A DNA stretch of 37,368 nt. Source: Candidatus Saccharimonadota bacterium (GTDB lineage: Bacteria; Patescibacteriota; Saccharimonadia; Saccharimonadales; Saccharimonadaceae). A program made the translations under genes and the position numbers. Below the pieces are notes generated by a model. That model ran no database searches, was not told where the DNA came from, and saw nothing but the letters and a program-made list of their open reading frames with translations. Of the stretch, positions 4,862 to 29,036 are shown piece by piece. How positions within the stretch are numbered: position 1 is the stretch's first letter; every line of letters starts with the position of its first letter. The stretch is from assembly GCA_017404795.1 (NCBI GenBank), contig JAFRBR010000011.1:1-37368 (forward strand), written 5' to 3'.

Positions 4862-6593
4862 GATAATCTTGCATCATCCGCGCACCCGAAATCACCGGCA
4901 AAAACTCCTTTAATTGCTCGCGCATAGTATATTCTAAGTCAAAATCACTATCCCAGATAGCAGCCGCTTCTTCCATTCTCTGATAAAGCATATCCACTTC
5001 CTCACCTTCGTCCTTGCCCGATACATTAAGGTAGGCATTCATCGAGCCATCCGCTACCCCACCATCGTGAGTCGAAATCATCACATTGAGATTGGCCACA
5101 TCTTTCATCCAAGAAGTCCCACAAGCCTCTAGCCCCACAATCGGCACATTAACCGTAATATTGCACCCCGCCGACAGCGCCAAGGCCATCTCCTCGTCAT
5201 AATCCGAAATATAGTGCACGTGCCCACGCAAATAGTCGTCCCTGTCTACTATTTCCAGCATTTTTCTCAATTTTTCTTGCATTGTTTGGTCTCCAGCGTG
5301 CACCCGCCCCGCCATAATATAATGCGCCCCGTGGCTTTCTAGAATATTTCTCAGCCGCCCCGGGTCATGAAAGGCTAGTTCTGGCCGTTTATAATCTGCA
5401 AATCGTCGTCTAAAATCATAAATCAGCTCATCTTCTCCAAATTTCAAAATTTTCCCATTCTGGTCCGGCCGTTTTTTCAAAATCTCATTTAACAGTCTCC
5501 GCCCCTGTTTCTTAAACTCTCGTATTTTTTCCGCCGTGAATAACTCCAGATTTTCCACATAATTCACGGTCGGATAGCCCTTAGCATCGATGATTTCCGA
5601 ATTTTCCATAAATTTCAAAATTTCCGGCAGTACCCAATAATCCATGTCGATCCCATTAGTCACCGCTTTGAATTTGACTTTGTTGCCAGCAATATCTCGG
5701 TAATTGGCAATTCTGGCGTGGAGTTTAGACACTCCAGAGCGCATCTCGGCAATTTCAATGGTCACCGACGAAAGTTTAATCCGGTTATCAGTAAACTTAT
5801 CGCTCAGCCATTTTTTCACCGCCAATGATTTGATATTCGGAAACACATAGCGCTCAAATTGCTCGTGCGTAAACTCCGCCTCAGCCGCCTGGACCAAAGT
5901 ATGATTTGTATATAGAGTATGCTTGCGGGTATAGACCACCGCTTCATAAAAATCCATTCCATTACTCGCCAACTCATCCAGCCGTGCCAGTGCCGCAAAG
6001 AAAGTCGCTACTTCGTTTAATTGCATAATTGCCGGCTTCAAGCCAATCAGCTTCAGCGCCGCATAACCACCAAAACCCAGTGCCACTTCTTGGTACAGCC
6101 GATGGTCGCCCCAACTTAGCCCCGAATACAATTCTCCAAAATTCGGCTCGGTAATCGCAATAATCCTGGTACTACCAAACTCTTTTTGCACCACATCCAA
6201 TTTACACAAATCATTACCACATTTAATATGCACTTGATCCACAAATTTAAACCCAAATTGTTTGTAATCTACATTTCGATGCTCATCGACAACCACGCCA
6301 TTTTCAACTTTTTGATGAGTTTCGGACGGGTAAAAAGGCGTAATCAGCGCAAATGGCACACCGAGTTTTTCAGCCACCCGGCGAGTGTCTGCCGCTAGTA
6401 TCCCTAGCCCCCCACCACCTCGAATACCATTAGCTTGGTCATAAATCTCAATCGTCCAATAAGTATAAGGCCGTTCTTTTGAGACCGCCTTAGTTAGCTT
6501 CCCTCTCTCCACCGCCTCATAAAAAATATCCACATCCTCAATATTCTCAAGCGGGTGATAAAAATATTCTGCATCCTGCGATTCATTATTCAT
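4839..6593 (-). CDS. GT35 alpha-glucan (glycogen/maltodextrin) phosphorylase, short form
   Basis: 584 residues. Phosphorylases of family GT35 release glucose-1-phosphate from alpha-1,4-glucan using pyridoxal phosphate. Landmarks: GGGGLGILAAD (59-69), LNEVATFFA (192-200, cf. NEGHxAF), TNHTLVQAAE (229-238, cf. THTPVxAG), VTNGIDMDYW (311-320, cf. VTNGVHxxxW), RRFADYKR (396-403) and GLEACGTSWMKDVANLN (487-503, cf. EASGTSGMKxxxNG). Lys497 aligns with the pyridoxal-phosphate lysine. It is shorter than the 800-residue enzyme of E. coli and closer to short archaeal/Thermotoga-type forms. An extended -10 ends 7 nt before the ATG, so the mRNA is probably leaderless. It fits with the GT4 and GH57 genes at 22747-25167 as part of a storage-glucan pathway. 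Confidence 0.85.
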   Translation of the reverse strand: MNNESQDAEYFYHPLENIEDVDIFYEAVERGKLTKAVSKERPYTYWTIEIYDQANGIRGGGGLGILAADTRRVAEKLGVPFALITPFYPSETHQKVENGVVVDEHRNVDYKQFGFKFVDQVHIKCGNDLCKLDVVQKEFGSTRIIAITEPNFGELYSGLSWGDHRLYQEVALGFGGYAALKLIGLKPAIMQLNEVATFFAALARLDELASNGMDFYEAVVYTRKHTLYTNHTLVQAAEAEFTHEQFERYVFPNIKSLAVKKWLSDKFTDNRIKLSSVTIEIAEMRSGVSKLHARIANYRDIAGNKVKFKAVTNGIDMDYWVLPEILKFMENSEIIDAKGYPTVNYVENLELFTAEKIREFKKQGRRLLNEILKKRPDQNGKILKFGEDELIYDFRRRFADYKRPELAFHDPGRLRNILESHGAHYIMAGRVHAGDQTMQEKLRKMLEIVDRDDYLRGHVHYISDYDEEMALALSAGCNITVNVPIVGLEACGTSWMKDVANLNVMISTHDGGVADGSMNAYLNVSGKDEGEEVDMLYQRMEEAAAIWDSDFDLEYTMREQLKEFLPVISGARMMQDYLDYLFPV

Positions 6594-20945: not shown

Positions 20946-21431
20946 TTTAATCGCTGTAACAATTAATCTGTGCGTCGCATCTCCCCCATCAAGCAACCGT
21001 CCAGCACAAGTCATAATTACAAGCGTATCTCGATCCGCGGAACTTAATAATTTACTCATTTCAATTTGATATTTCGGCACCATATCAATTGCTACTATCT
21101 TGTAGTCTGCATAATCATAGTTAATTCCATCCCCCAACGCAACCTGATATAAATTTTCAAACACCGTAGCAGAGTGACCAATTAGTAGAGTTTTATTTTT
21201 GGCTTGGGAATAACTCCCTACGATCTCATCAGGTGTGTTTAGGCTATTATTATCTAATGTAAGTGTCGTCACATCAGAATTCAAACCAATTTTTGGCACT
21301 ACCAACTTAGTCGAAACTTCGTAATTCGTAGCTCCTGCCGGCTGTAAACCCACAACCAAATATATAGCAAAAGCCAAAAAATACAATCCGACGAAAATTT
21401 TTCTTGTGCTTAAGCGCTGCTTTAGCTCCAC
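20940..21431 (-). CDS. Sortase-family transpeptidase
   Basis: 163 residues. An N-terminal membrane helix (about 12-31) is followed by the sortase beta-barrel. The catalytic triad is visible: His86 in IGHSATVF, Cys142 in LVIMTCAG and Arg155 in DATHRLIV. The short length and LVVPKIGLNSDV entry strand resemble class D/E-like sortases. It would join surface proteins to the cell wall or to each other; no LPxTG-type substrate is seen in the window. The start is GTG, chosen because AAGGAGG lies 5 nt upstream and TGCTATAAT 20 nt upstream. Its last 6 bases overlap the end of the GH97 gene. Confidence 0.85.
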   Translation of the reverse strand: MELKQRLSTRKIFVGLYFLAFAIYLVVGLQPAGATNYEVSTKLVVPKIGLNSDVTTLTLDNNSLNTPDEIVGSYSQAKNKTLLIGHSATVFENLYQVALGDGINYDYADYKIVAIDMVPKYQIEMSKLLSSADRDTLVIMTCAGRLLDGGDATHRLIVTAIKL

Positions 21432-21451
21432 ACTCTCCTCCTTATGTTTTT

Positions 21452-21460
21452 ATTATAGCA
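21452..21460 (-). promoter_or_regulatory. Extended -10 of the sortase gene
   Basis: TGCTATAAT, hexamer 21452-21457. It is followed by a 20-nt leader containing AAGGAGG before the GTG start. Confidence 0.65.
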
Positions 21461-21550
21461 TAGGCATTTTCATTTTTGGATTTATGAATTATATTTTTTC
21501 AAAATCAAAGTTGTGGAAAACTCAAAATTTGCAATTGTTCAACTATCTGT

Positions 21551-21558
21551 GCTACAAT
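21551..21558 (+). promoter_or_regulatory. Extended -10 of the P-loop kinase gene
   Basis: TGCTACAAT with hexamer 21553-21558, nine bases before the ATG at 21568. A near-leaderless message is expected. Confidence 0.5.
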
Positions 21559-21567
21559 AGAATTATT

Positions 21568-22068
21568 ATGGAAGGTAATAAATCCAAACCTCGTGCACTT
21601 CTGGTTTTCGGAGCGCCTTGTAGCGGCAAATCAACTTTTGCTGCAAAATTCGGTCACAAATTCAATCTAGCGGATTATGATTTTGACCAATTGATGAGTG
21701 AGCACGAATTCACCCACGACGAAATTTTAATCATCCTAGAACAAATTTTAAAAACCCGTCAGACAATTTTAATCGAAGGCTGTCTAGACACCGAGAAAGA
21801 CCGTATCGAAATGCGCAATCTCTTACGTGACCATGGTTACGAACCCACCCTCATTTGGATTCAGACCGATGTTTCCACTATTCGTTCTCGACTAAAATCG
21901 CGCTTCAAATCCGTCAGTAAAGCCAAAGATTTCTACGAAAAAGCCGTAGATACAATTGAGGCACCCAATGAAAACGAGCACGCTATCATTCTTTCCGGCA
22001 AACATACTTTTGAAACTCAAGCCAAACACGTCGTGGCCGGCTTAGCTGATTTGGGCAAAAATAGTTAA
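21568..22068 (+). CDS. AAA_33-type P-loop ATPase/kinase
   Basis: 166 residues. Walker A is GAPCSGKST (15-23), preceded by a hydrophobic strand. A DYDFDQLM segment and ILIEGCLDTEKDR resemble the second strand of small P-loop kinases, and LIWIQTDVSTIRSRLKSR supplies the lid Arg residues. This pattern fits the AAA_33/zeta-toxin-like or nucleoside-kinase-like group that phosphorylates small molecules or RNA ends; the substrate cannot be read. The ATG is preferred over upstream starts because a -10 (TACAAT) lies 9 nt before it. The stop overlaps the ATG of the metallopeptidase gene (TAATG), so the two are translationally coupled. Confidence 0.72.
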   Translation: MEGNKSKPRALLVFGAPCSGKSTFAAKFGHKFNLADYDFDQLMSEHEFTHDEILIILEQILKTRQTILIEGCLDTEKDRIEMRNLLRDHGYEPTLIWIQTDVSTIRSRLKSRFKSVSKAKDFYEKAVDTIEAPNENEHAIILSGKHTFETQAKHVVAGLADLGKNS

Positions 22069-22613
22069 TGATTATCCAGGATTCAGAATTCGGCGAAGTT
22101 ATCGTCCGCAAAAATGCTTGGGTTAGAGGTGTTAAGTTTTCAGTTTCTACATCTGGACGTTTGCAAATGAGCGTACCAAAATACACCTCCGAGTTCATGG
22201 CTAAGCGCTATCTCAAATCCAACCGCGACAATATCCGCCAGAACCTCCCCCTAAAAGACCCGTCCAACCAGCGAGCTCGTGATTATCAAAAAAAGCAATT
22301 AATGAAAAAAGCCCGTGATTATCTGCCTTACCGGCTAGAATATTGGGCTAAACGTTATGGTTATAAATATGAAAAGTGCCGTTTATCTCACGCCAATACA
22401 CGCTGGGGCAGCTGTTCGTCTAATCGCACCATCTCACTCAACATTGGCCTCATGAAAGTCCCCGAGCCTTTACGCGATTATGTGATTTTGCATGAGCTAG
22501 CACATCTTAATCATATGGATCATTCGCCTGCCTTTTGGCGCGAAGTCAGTCTCCACGACCCTAATTACAAAACCCACGAACGCCGACTGAAACACTTCTC
22601 GCCTGGGTTATAG
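22068..22613 (+). CDS. YgjP/WLM-like (DUF45) metallopeptidase
   Basis: 181 residues. The zinc site HELAH is at 142-146, with a third ligand probably His152 (MDHSPAFW). RWGSCSS (112-118) is the other family signature of DUF45/YgjP proteins. The N-terminal beta-rich part (VRGVKFSVSTSGRLQMSVP) is also typical. These are predicted zinc peptidases of the M48/WLM superclan, often next to restriction or repair genes; the physiological target is unknown. It is coupled to the upstream kinase gene by a 1-base overlap. It ends one base before the CCA end of the opposing tRNA-Trp gene. Confidence 0.87.
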   Translation: MIIQDSEFGEVIVRKNAWVRGVKFSVSTSGRLQMSVPKYTSEFMAKRYLKSNRDNIRQNLPLKDPSNQRARDYQKKQLMKKARDYLPYRLEYWAKRYGYKYEKCRLSHANTRWGSCSSNRTISLNIGLMKVPEPLRDYVILHELAHLNHMDHSPAFWREVSLHDPNYKTHERRLKHFSPGL

Positions 22614-25308: not shown

Positions 25309-25518
25309 ATGGCAAAGAAGAATAATACTAAAAGAAAGTTAGTTGGGCTGGTTTCTGAGGAATCTGGTGTTCGAGCTTATTATACCAAGAAAAACACCAT
25401 GAACACCCCAGACAAGTTAAGCCTCAGAAAATACGACCCCGTCTTGCGTAAGCACGTCTTATTTGTTGAGACCAAGAAGAACCTCGGTTGCAACGAAGTC
25501 AAAGAAAAGAAACGCTAA
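25309..25518 (+). CDS. rpmG: Ribosomal protein bL33
   Basis: 69 residues. MAKKNNTKRKLVGLVSEES is followed by AYYTKKNTMNTPDKLSLRKYDPVLRKHVLFVETK, the bL33 core (xYxTxKNxxNTPxxLxLxKYxPxLRKHxxxxExK). The paired Cys residues of zinc-binding L33 are absent (one Cys only, at the C-terminus), so this is a C-minus form. The C-terminal tail is about 15 residues longer than in E. coli. The ATG at 25309 is chosen because earlier in-frame codons lie upstream of the promoter. A strong terminator follows. Confidence 0.93.
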   Translation: MAKKNNTKRKLVGLVSEESGVRAYYTKKNTMNTPDKLSLRKYDPVLRKHVLFVETKKNLGCNEVKEKKR

Positions 25519-25530
25519 CAGCAAAATACC

Positions 25531-25560
25531 GGCGGGGTCTTAAAGAACCCCGCCTTTTTT
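25531..25560 (+). terminator. Rho-independent terminator of rpmG, possibly shared
   Basis: GGCGGGGT/ACCCCGCC (25531-25553) followed by seven T. It lies between rpmG and the opposing zinc-finger ORF; on the minus strand the following T-run is weak (GGTATTTTG). Confidence 0.9.
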
Positions 25561-25568
25561 GTGAGATG

Positions 25569-25676
25569 CTACGAACCGCACATCAAGACATGCATTGCAT
25601 ACTGCGCTTCCGTGGTAAACACAGCACCACACCGCCTGCAAGTCCACGTAATATGATGGATTCTCCTTTTACGCAT
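25569..25676 (-). CDS. C2HC zinc-finger microprotein, 35 residues
   Basis: A short reading frame missed by length filters. After a basic start (MRKRRIHHITWT) comes C13-x2-C16-x12-H29-x3-C33, a complete C2HC zinc-finger pattern with the hydrophobic spacing of a classical finger (Phe20, Tyr26). AAGGGGGTGA, close to the perfect ribosome-binding site AAGGAGGTGA, lies 5 nt before the ATG. A promoter is present: TTGCAA, 18-nt spacer, TATAAT. The stop is followed by the hairpin shared with rpmG. It may bind DNA or RNA, or be a protein-contact module. No homologue is recalled. The coding claim rests on the coincidence of promoter, ribosome site, motif and terminator. Confidence 0.62.
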   Translation of the reverse strand: MRKRRIHHITWTCRRCGAVFTTEAQYAMHVLMCGS

Positions 25677-25723
25677 CTATCTCACCCCCTTCAAGGTGCC
25701 ACAATTTGGTCATTGCCACCCAT

Positions 25724-25753
25724 ATTATATAATAATAGACTCAGATTTTGCAA
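25724..25753 (-). promoter_or_regulatory. Promoter of the zinc-finger microprotein
   Basis: TTGCAA (25748-25753), 18-nt spacer, TATAAT (25724-25729), which overlaps the TAA stop of the helicase gene. The leader contains a possible hairpin, GGTG..CAAT / ATTG..CACC (25696-25721), just before the ribosome site. Confidence 0.6.
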
Positions 25754-28700
25754 GCAACAGCTTTATGAATTCTTTGATGTCTTTAAGGTTTTTCTGCCCG
25801 TCAGGAGCAATAAATATCTCCGAATCTTCAATAAATTTAAGTGATAAAACCAATTTATAGACTGCCTGCATCAAAGCCAATAAATTCTGCTCATCTTCAT
25901 CGTTAAATTCATAAACCTTATCGTGCACTTGGCGGTCCTTAATATCCGGCGTCACAAACAAAATATGCGCCCGACTTATCTTATACTTACCATAAGTCGG
26001 TGAGTTATTGAGCAGCAACTTATAAAACCCCAATTGCAACATATACTTAAACAGCGTAGCATGAGATTGCCATTTTTCTTTGTGGTAACCACTGGTTTTG
26101 AAATCATAAATCTCGATCTCTTTGTTATCTTCGTCTATTATAATGTGGTCAATTTTACCTGTTACAGGCACCCCAGCAATTACCAACTTCTCGGGGCCTA
26201 AATTCACCTCAGCCTTGCCCTGTCTAAGAATCGGCCCAAACTCGGCCAGTGCTACTGTCAAATCCTCTGGCCCCTTTTCCCGAATCACTTGCTTAACTTC
26301 CGCATTTAAATCCTTTTCATCCAAAGCTTCCAAGAAAAATTTCTCCGCCTCTTCATCAGTCAGACCTTTATTAGTCACCGCTTCAAAAGTCGCGTGTACC
26401 AAATTTCCCATCGCCATCGCTTCATTTTCTGGCTCTCTCGGCGCCCTCAAGATGTTATTTTTGAAAAATTCCTGTGGGCCGGCATAAACCACATCGATAA
26501 ACGAAGTCAGCCCCGTAGCGCTCATCTTGTAATTTGATATCCGCTCTCGGTACAATGCCTTCATGTCTGGTGTCAAAGCCACATAAGATGCCAAATAATT
26601 GCGCAAGTTTTTAACAGCTGTTTCCGGAGTCGCCATTTCATACATCGTCTGCACCTTCCGACTAGGCAAAAATGGCGAAATCACCTCCTCACCCTCAGCA
26701 TATTCGGCCAAATACTCCAACCTATCCGGTGCTTTGCCATTGAAATCCTTCAAGGAATTCGTAATATAGAGCCCCTCCTTGGCCCGAGTCAGAGCCACAT
26801 AGAGCACTCTCAGCCGCTCCCCGTCTGTCATCCCTGTATGGCGAATTTGGGTCAAATTACTAGGCAGACTCAGCAAATTATTATTACCCTTCCCCTTGCC
26901 CCAGGCCATATGATCTACCGAGACCATAAAGACATATTTGAACTCTAGACCCTTAGCTTTGTGCGCCGACAGCACCTGAATCGCCTCGTCCGCATCTCTG
27001 TAGGGACTAGTAGTAATTAGAGGCATCTCTGCAGACTCATAATCGTCCAGCATCGCAATCAAATCTTTTAATTTTAGAGGTTTATCACCGAAGTGGCGCT
27101 TCAATTTACCCCTTAGGGCCGCCAGATTCTCATACAGAGTAAAGGCCTCATATTCACCCCTATTAGTGTAATATGCCAAAAACGGCGACCGCTTACCCTC
27201 TAACTCTATCGCCCCAGTTAGATAGTCCAGCCAGATTTCTAGAGGCTCGTTAAATGATTTAGCCGCCAAATTCGCCATCAGCCCAGCTATCTCTGTTATA
27301 TCGGAGTTTTCGGACGCGCTTAGATCAGCAAAAACCGAATGTTTATCTTGCCTTGCCTTACCTACTAGACGCACTACCTCTAATATTGGCAATTGCCAAA
27401 ACGGATACGACAGTATCTCCACAATCGAGGTGTTTTCGTTGCGCTCATTAGCTAGTTCCCACACATACCGAGCAATCGTCAAAATTTGACGAATCGGCTC
27501 GTTTTCCAGCAGATTGTCTCGCTTTTCGTAAGCAATATTTAGCCCTGGTTTAGCTTTGAGATATGGCAGAAGCGGCATAAAATACTTGGTTTTATAGGAA
27601 ATAATCGCAATTTCACTTTGAGGTACTCCGTTTTGGACTAATTCCGCAATTTTATCCGCCACAAAAGCATATTCCATGTCACTAGCCAAAAACTCATACC
27701 GGTAAATTTGCGATTTTTCTGGCGTCTTTTTATGTGCCACTAATTCTTTGTCCGCAAATCTGTCCGGCGCCTGTCGAATCACTTCACTCGCAAAATCCAA
27801 AATCTCCTCAGTGCTACGATAATTTTCGACCAACGGTATCACTTCAGCGTTGTAGTGATTTTGAAAATCCGTTAAATTCGTCGACAAAGCCCCCTGAAAT
27901 TCATAAATCGCTTGGTCGTCATCACCTACCGCCATTATTTGCGGCTGCTCATAATCCGTCAAGGCCTTAATAATTGCAAATTGCGACGGATTAGTATCCT
28001 GAAACTCATCCAGCATGATAAACTGATACCTTTCAGTTAAGGTTGCCCGGAAGCCATCATCAGTTTTGAGCACTCTCACCGCCTCCTCTATCATATCATC
28101 AAAATCATACAATCCTTCCTGCCGCAGATACTCATCGTATTGCTCCATCACTTTAGCGATACTGACTAGCTTCTGATTTGCCACTCGGTCTTTCAGCCGA
28201 TACGCTCCCTTTTCATCTTTTTCAAAATACTTATCTTTCCAGCTAGAAAGTGATTTTATCTTTTCGCTAGATTCCGCTTCGACAATCGCCTCTTTCAAAT
28301 CTCGTGCCAGAATCGCCACAATCCTTTCAATCTGAGGCGACGACGATTTATCGCTCTCGGGACCATTAGTCTGGCCAAACGACCTTGGGTGTGTCTTAAA
28401 AGTAATTATCGGGGCCTTATCTACATATCGCGACAATAACTTATATATCGGCTGATACGCATTTTCGTATGATTCTTTAAAAACCCTTGGCACCACATTC
28501 TCAAGTAGTGGTGATATCGTTTCAGACAATACCTTGGAATCCGCCATATTTTGCTCAGCAATCACTGCCAAATCGCGGGCTGTTAGCCCCGCCGACTTTG
28601 CCTCCGAAATCACACTCACGATATCTTTAACATTGTCTTTCCTCAAAATATCCTTGGCCGGCAACTGCTCTTGAATTTGTTTTACGATTTTAAATCTCTG

Positions 28701-29036
28701 CACTTCATCAATCGCCACATCAATTTTGCGCTCATAATCTACGGCATAATTTGCGTATTGTAGCAAAATTTCTGTCCCAAAAGCATGATAAGTGCTGACA
28801 TTAACTTTTAATCCGGCCGCACCAATGATTGACTTTAGGCGCTCGCGCATATTTTTGGCCCCAGTTTCCGTAAAAGTCATACAGAGGATATTTTCTGGGT
28901 TCGTGTCCGTATTTTCCAAAATATAAGCCACCTTATGAGACAATAATTGGGTCTTACCAGTCCCTGGCCCTGCCAGTACTAATAGCGGTCCCTCCAAATA
29001 TTCTACTGCCCGTTTTTGATTTGTATTTAGCCCCAT
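25725..29036 (-). CDS. UvrD/Rep-family helicase with C-terminal PD-(D/E)XK nuclease
   Basis: 1103 residues. Superfamily 1A helicase motifs in order: Walker A GPGTGKTQ (23-30), Ia CMTFTETGA, II LDEFQDT (342-348), III GDDDQAIYEFQGA (371-383), IV ENYRST, V LSAHKAKGLEFKYVF and VI RVLYVALTRAKEGLYI. The last 150 residues carry a RecB/Cas4-like nuclease: GKIDHIIIDEDNKEIEIYDFKTS with the D...DxK catalytic set. The fusion is like AddA-type or CPR helicase-nucleases for double-strand-break repair. An extra Ser/Lys-rich insert lies around residues 214-236. AAAGGAGG 5 nt before the ATG. It is the last gene of rmuC-gpsA-helicase. Confidence 0.92.
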   Translation of the reverse strand: MGLNTNQKRAVEYLEGPLLVLAGPGTGKTQLLSHKVAYILENTDTNPENILCMTFTETGAKNMRERLKSIIGAAGLKVNVSTYHAFGTEILLQYANYAVDYERKIDVAIDEVQRFKIVKQIQEQLPAKDILRKDNVKDIVSVISEAKSAGLTARDLAVIAEQNMADSKVLSETISPLLENVVPRVFKESYENAYQPIYKLLSRYVDKAPIITFKTHPRSFGQTNGPESDKSSSPQIERIVAILARDLKEAIVEAESSEKIKSLSSWKDKYFEKDEKGAYRLKDRVANQKLVSIAKVMEQYDEYLRQEGLYDFDDMIEEAVRVLKTDDGFRATLTERYQFIMLDEFQDTNPSQFAIIKALTDYEQPQIMAVGDDDQAIYEFQGALSTNLTDFQNHYNAEVIPLVENYRSTEEILDFASEVIRQAPDRFADKELVAHKKTPEKSQIYRYEFLASDMEYAFVADKIAELVQNGVPQSEIAIISYKTKYFMPLLPYLKAKPGLNIAYEKRDNLLENEPIRQILTIARYVWELANERNENTSIVEILSYPFWQLPILEVVRLVGKARQDKHSVFADLSASENSDITEIAGLMANLAAKSFNEPLEIWLDYLTGAIELEGKRSPFLAYYTNRGEYEAFTLYENLAALRGKLKRHFGDKPLKLKDLIAMLDDYESAEMPLITTSPYRDADEAIQVLSAHKAKGLEFKYVFMVSVDHMAWGKGKGNNNLLSLPSNLTQIRHTGMTDGERLRVLYVALTRAKEGLYITNSLKDFNGKAPDRLEYLAEYAEGEEVISPFLPSRKVQTMYEMATPETAVKNLRNYLASYVALTPDMKALYRERISNYKMSATGLTSFIDVVYAGPQEFFKNNILRAPREPENEAMAMGNLVHATFEAVTNKGLTDEEAEKFFLEALDEKDLNAEVKQVIREKGPEDLTVALAEFGPILRQGKAEVNLGPEKLVIAGVPVTGKIDHIIIDEDNKEIEIYDFKTSGYHKEKWQSHATLFKYMLQLGFYKLLLNNSPTYGKYKISRAHILFVTPDIKDRQVHDKVYEFNDEDEQNLLALMQAVYKLVLSLKFIEDSEIFIAPDGQKNLKDIKEFIKLLLAKSESIII

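Follow-up and report, generated by a model that had tools for sequence, protein, structure and literature searches.

A conserved zinc-finger microprotein gene in an exchanged slot behind a UvrD-family helicase gene of ruminant-gut Saccharibacteria

The window, the whole 37,368-nucleotide stretch of Candidatus Saccharimonadota DNA that we analysed, contains a short interval between a helicase gene and the gene for ribosomal protein L33. Within this interval lies an open reading frame for a zinc-finger microprotein, accompanied by the following features.

25309–25518, plus strand: ribosomal protein L33 gene (rpmG; PF00471), the other flank of the interval, hereafter the slot
25531–25554: GC-rich terminator hairpin between the microprotein and L33 genes, with a good T-run on the plus strand only
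25569–25676, minus strand: C2HC zinc-finger microprotein gene, 35 residues, with an ATG start and a TAG stop (25569–25571)
25578–25640, minus strand: zinc-finger core, codons C13 to C33, with ligands C13, C16, H29 and C33
25641–25676, minus strand: basic N-terminal tail MRKRRIHHITWT, net charge +4
25677–25679, minus strand: in-frame stop codon TAG directly before the start codon
25682–25691, minus strand: ribosome-binding site AAGGGGGTGA, with 8 nt between GGGGG and ATG
25724–25753, minus strand: promoter TTGCAA-18-TATAAT, overlapping the helicase stop codon (25725–25727)
25725–29036, minus strand: UvrD-family helicase with a C-terminal PD-(D/E)XK nuclease domain (Pfam PF00580, PF13361, PF12705)

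The minus-strand ORF at 25569–25676 translates to MRKRRIHHITWTCRRCGAVFTTEAQYAMHVLMCGS, in which the ligands are spaced exactly C-x2-C-x12-H-x3-C, the perfect finger that a first-pass annotation of this DNA had described. Elsewhere in the window, a protein with an AAA_33/zeta-toxin-like kinase domain (21406–22068) adjoins a YgjP-like metallopeptidase (22068–22613).

Many genomes of this genus carry homologues of the microprotein in the same gap, and the matches are mostly labelled ruminant-gut Saccharibacteria, with a few MAG contigs bearing other labels; all sequences came from assemblies, mostly MAGs. The four ligands, whose loss from relatives with the same locus had been named beforehand as the observation that would count against the gene, are invariant in 33 of 33 single-finger homologues. 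Selection on the single-finger ORF is purifying, and the bias towards synonymous substitution for which the first-pass annotation had proposed a check is strong, with pS of 0.69, pN of 0.15 and dN/dS of about 0.09 across 17 disjoint pairs, the last a rough figure because synonymous sites are near saturation. The finger frame is also the sole open frame in all 34 rows compared, every other frame having stops in many rows. Nothing except its small size favours reading the ORF as a chance one within non-coding DNA, a reading with practically no prospect of being right given the invariant ligands, the low dN/dS, the stops in every other frame and the conserved promoter described below, and which we reject on the conservation and frame tests. 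The microprotein ORF of the window is almost certainly a real, strongly conserved gene and one occupant of an exchanged slot. Ordinary gene-calling would likely miss this 35-residue ORF.

The signals around the gene were then compared across relatives. The ribosome-binding site of the window differs from AAGGAGGTGA by one mismatch, and the start codons of 78 zinc ORFs at the slot (ATG, GTG or TTG) all lie 7–10 nt after a GGNGG-type core, which agrees with the near-consensus site reported previously; these starts were picked partly by ribosome-site spacing, and the 7–10 nt range is not independent of that choice. A promoter match in a single sequence is weak alone (five found versus 3.2 expected). 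Across the genus, a -10-like box falls within -6 to +30 of the helicase stop in 107 of 126 loci, compared to 22.7 expected from shuffles, bearing out the proposal of a promoter over the helicase stop. A TTGnnn box lies 16–18 nt upstream of the -10-like box in 95 loci, at exactly 17 nt in 82. The -35 box overlaps conserved helicase codons, whereas the -10 box is mostly at or past the helicase stop, so that the helicase protein does not explain its conservation. The hairpin following the gene, claimed as a terminator shared with L33, is real and well suited to L33 on the plus strand; on the strand of the microprotein it is weak (tail GGTATTTTGC), and the sharing is therefore only partly supported. 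A stop codon abutting the start, as in the window, occurs in 39/78 zinc ORFs, 12/33 non-zinc ORFs and 0/92 L33 genes, often in the form ATGA-GTG/TTG. A programmed frameshift from the out-of-frame ATG of such starts is unneeded as an explanation, because the in-frame GTG or TTG is better spaced, at about 8 nt.

AlphaFold2, run on 27 sequences, predicts one beta-beta-alpha finger with a core pLDDT of 93–94, two strands being followed by a helix at residues 23–32. The nearest solved structures are C2H2 fingers, including DNA-binding ones, with Foldseek E-values of 0.48 or worse, weak as is usual for so short a chain. The window protein may fold around one zinc ion. Its zf-met (PF12874) score of 21.2 bits equals the cut-off of that family (21.2 bits), its zf-C2H2 (PF00096) score is 15.6 bits versus a cut-off of 25.2, and it reaches no family cut-off in NCBIfam. 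DUF7410 (PF24166; cut-off 27.5 bits), a family with matches in Haloferax, has no match in the window genome and none above the cut-off in 60 genus genomes, and we rejected it as a family label; a fragment from one relative scores above that cut-off, at 28.6 bits.

With classical C2H2/C2HC fingers the window protein shares the C-x2-C-x12-H spacing, a conserved F between the second Cys and the His, and the predicted beta-beta-alpha arrangement; unlike classical C2H2 fingers, it has Cys as fourth ligand at x3, consists of one finger and a basic tail only, and is bacterial. Haloferax zinc-finger micro-proteins are likewise prokaryotic one-domain zinc proteins of under 70 residues. Those proteins carry two C(P)XCG motifs (PMC6562870, PMC11241148, PMC10716476), whereas in the window protein there is a single CxxCG motif, the second pair being His/Cys. 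Ros/MucR proteins also combine a bacterial C2H2-like finger with basic residues alongside, but their Cys-His spacer is 9 residues long and their domain is larger, with one more helix (PMC9779718), compared to a spacer of 12 in a protein of 35 residues here.

We surveyed the flanks downstream of the helicase at 126 distinct slots from the same ruminant-gut Saccharibacteria genus, assigning occupant classes by pattern and profile, for which reason the boundaries among zinc classes are approximate. A single finger occupies 33 slots, always behind the UvrD/PD-(D/E)XK helicase. Another 45 hold a finger or Cys-rich module joined to a DnaJ-like CxxCxGxG module (20 with a C2HC finger, 11 with a longer C2H2-type and 14 with another Cys-rich part). 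The second module of these longer proteins resembles the zinc module of anti-TRAP and DnaJ, whose CxxCxGxG repeats the window protein lacks; the two-module form has a predicted pLDDT of 81 and a finger helix, and its structural matches, to DnaJ, C2H2 and anti-TRAP, are weak. A non-zinc family fills 34 slots, and most of the 14 with none of these classes still hold another small ORF with a ribosome site. No slot among the 126 contains zinc and non-zinc forms together. Members of the non-zinc family lie just past the helicase stop (at L024, L030, L055 and others), are about 50–70 residues long and carry the pattern IIIxDxxxGxS...GYxxA...GHxV. This family has no match in Pfam, is restricted to the genus in a search of 148 genomes, and is not basic, with a mean net charge of 0.1. 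At L031 and L043, the helicase and the zinc ORF are apparently separated by a further small ORF that contains a hydrophobic stretch.

Occupants change often relative to the helicase. When occupant class is mapped by parsimony onto a tree built from helicase C-termini, 52 changes are needed, compared to a shuffled mean of 76. Unrelated occupants lie between conserved flanks behind helicases that are 97% identical (L089 and L090) and 96% identical (L058 and L066), and one pair with helicase ends 99.6% identical (L061 and L014) carries zinc proteins of 69% identity. Among single-finger slots, the identity of the occupants says almost nothing about that of the helicases (rho 0.16). The closest occupants to that of the window in this class (L002, L003 and L081, 87.5% over the core) sit behind helicases only 59–62% identical to its own, and the occupant of L242, where L33 is convergent as in the window, is 86% identical over the full protein. 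Unrelated microproteins thus take each other's place while the flanks stay conserved. Allele exchange of this form is familiar from capsule, restriction-specificity and immunity loci, and the slot resembles them in its conserved flanks and exchanged middle; unlike them, it exchanges a single microprotein behind a helicase-nuclease. We know of no described case of such an exchange, although we did not search the literature systematically for one. The exchanged slot is more interesting than the single gene, and could not be seen from the window alone.

This exchange bears on whether the microprotein could be a free-standing DNA-binding regulator of distant genes, like Brz of Halobacterium or archaeal viral C2H2 proteins. 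A lone classical finger is usually a weak DNA binder, and swaps with non-zinc proteins are hard to square with a fixed set of target genes; we consider this role improbable, even with a single finger plus basic tail and DNA-binding C2H2 fingers among the nearest structures to recommend it. Small zinc-finger regulators do exist (PMC2253796, PMC3541406), which also speaks for such a role.

The helicase is present in 163 of 174 genus genomes and is the constant upstream neighbour of the slot. In one contig (G033:C6, 6779–7600 and 46006–46827), two helicase matches have identical score and length, perhaps an assembly repeat. The order gpsA-helicase-slot-L33-GH57 is widely preserved. L33 is co-directional with the helicase at 89 slot loci and convergent in the window, in five other slots (L025, L027, L029, L095 and L096) and at L242; L33 alone appears inverted, because the orientation of GH57 is kept in relatives. 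Where L33 is inverted, the slot persists directly after the helicase, and in a deep branch without a nearby L33 the slots are filled all the same. The occupant is anchored to the helicase rather than to L33.

Adjacency to L33 is one reason to suspect that the zinc protein associates with the ribosome, as do the small C2H2 proteins of archaeal ribosomes, which include the putative zinc-finger protein aS21 (PMC12605026). Another is that the microprotein profile matches two chains of archaeal 70S ribosomes, 6skg_Bo and 9qf4_Bk, with weak E-values (0.008 and 0.31, respectively). A gene that tracks the helicase and not L33 fits poorly with this proposal, as does the exchange itself, since near relatives would not swap a ribosomal protein for unrelated ones, and we regard a ribosomal role as very improbable.

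Beyond the genus, no slot was seen behind helicase orthologues at 27 loci from other genera, and we rejected the idea that the slot is a general feature of Saccharibacteria. A helicase of this kind (34% identical) also comes before a two-module zinc protein in genus g47, where the zinc protein in turn precedes a putative Y-family polymerase. At two g47 loci (L144 and L148), the zinc microprotein lies beside a small protein and the putative Y-family polymerase-like gene, and at L148 a putative IS30-like transposase lies on the other side. Most order-wide matches to the two-module profile outside g1 and g47 fall in the central domain of DnaJ-sized proteins. Two Eggerthellaceae-labelled genomes from deer contain a 52-residue ORF with the same finger (L264 and L267, around 5001–5093) in a high-GC context, and within the 10 kb read around these copies there is no such helicase. 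Their finger core shares 87.5% protein and 71% DNA identity with one Saccharibacteria form, and a strong finger match occurs in only 2 of 138 Eggerthellaceae genomes. Actinobacteria are known hosts of cultivated Saccharibacteria. The copies, which sit in another phylum, suggest that genes have passed between Saccharibacteria and a family of Actinobacteria sharing one gut. Searches of viral contig, phage and plasmid collections returned no microprotein match, and we rejected phage or plasmid cargo as an explanation. The slot microproteins also matched none of the known defence proteins, and were set aside as members of these; the helicase matches GajB models via its UvrD domain.

The Eggerthellaceae copies, which live without the helicase nearby, lend weight to the view that the slot is a permissive expression site, in which a strong promoter at the helicase end and the ribosome site serve as a docking place where recombination drops unrelated small genes, each doing its own job apart from the helicase. 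One 5' region is common to unrelated protein families, and occupants and helicase show almost no co-variation, as this view would have it. Set against it, the occupant families look dedicated to the slot, with one copy per genus genome, and the slot follows the helicase even with L33 inverted or not near. We judge a permissive site rather unlikely, and it remains a serious rival.

Our preferred reading, tentative and somewhat short of an even chance as a whole, is that the microprotein may be a nucleic-acid-binding accessory or regulatory factor of the helicase-nuclease that is exchanged by homologous recombination. The zinc-stabilised finger and basic tail would act as a putative DNA or RNA binder, as suggested by a tail charge of at least +2 in 30 of 33 single-finger homologues and by the C2H2 fingers among the nearest structures, at weak E-values. 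The link to the helicase, whose work may lie in DNA repair, uptake or defence, is suggested by the slot staying after the helicase with L33 inverted or not nearby, and by the same pairing in g47. The conserved flanks in helicase and L33 would let recombination swap the occupants, a change that a variable outside factor, such as phage or foreign DNA, would favour. Natural competence, with uptake of flanked cassettes, gives Saccharibacteria a route for exchange (PMC10633639).

Several observations count against parts of this reading. An intimate helicase subunit would co-vary with the helicase, and the near absence of correlation makes a tight subunit role harder to defend. Because the non-zinc family is not basic, binding of nucleic acid may be a property of some occupants only. 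The Eggerthellaceae copies without a helicase within 10 kb speak against a helicase-linked mechanism, and the lack of matches to defence proteins, viruses, phages or plasmids speaks against the proposed mechanism. A bolder form of our reading, which we regard as doubtful, is that this is a hypervariable dedicated slot in which structurally unrelated microproteins might serve one conserved helicase-nuclease as functionally interchangeable factors of specificity or evasion, with diversity kept by phage or foreign DNA and one form passed between Saccharibacteria and Eggerthellaceae.

Taken together, a stretch of a CPR genome that looks empty contains a gene under strong selection, and more than a hundred related genomes almost always have some microprotein at the corresponding position. 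The many clean swaps that nature has carried out in near-identical backgrounds make the slot a direct genetic handle on microprotein function. A locus where single tiny proteins are rapidly exchanged behind one constant DNA-processing enzyme would be a novel context for allele exchange.
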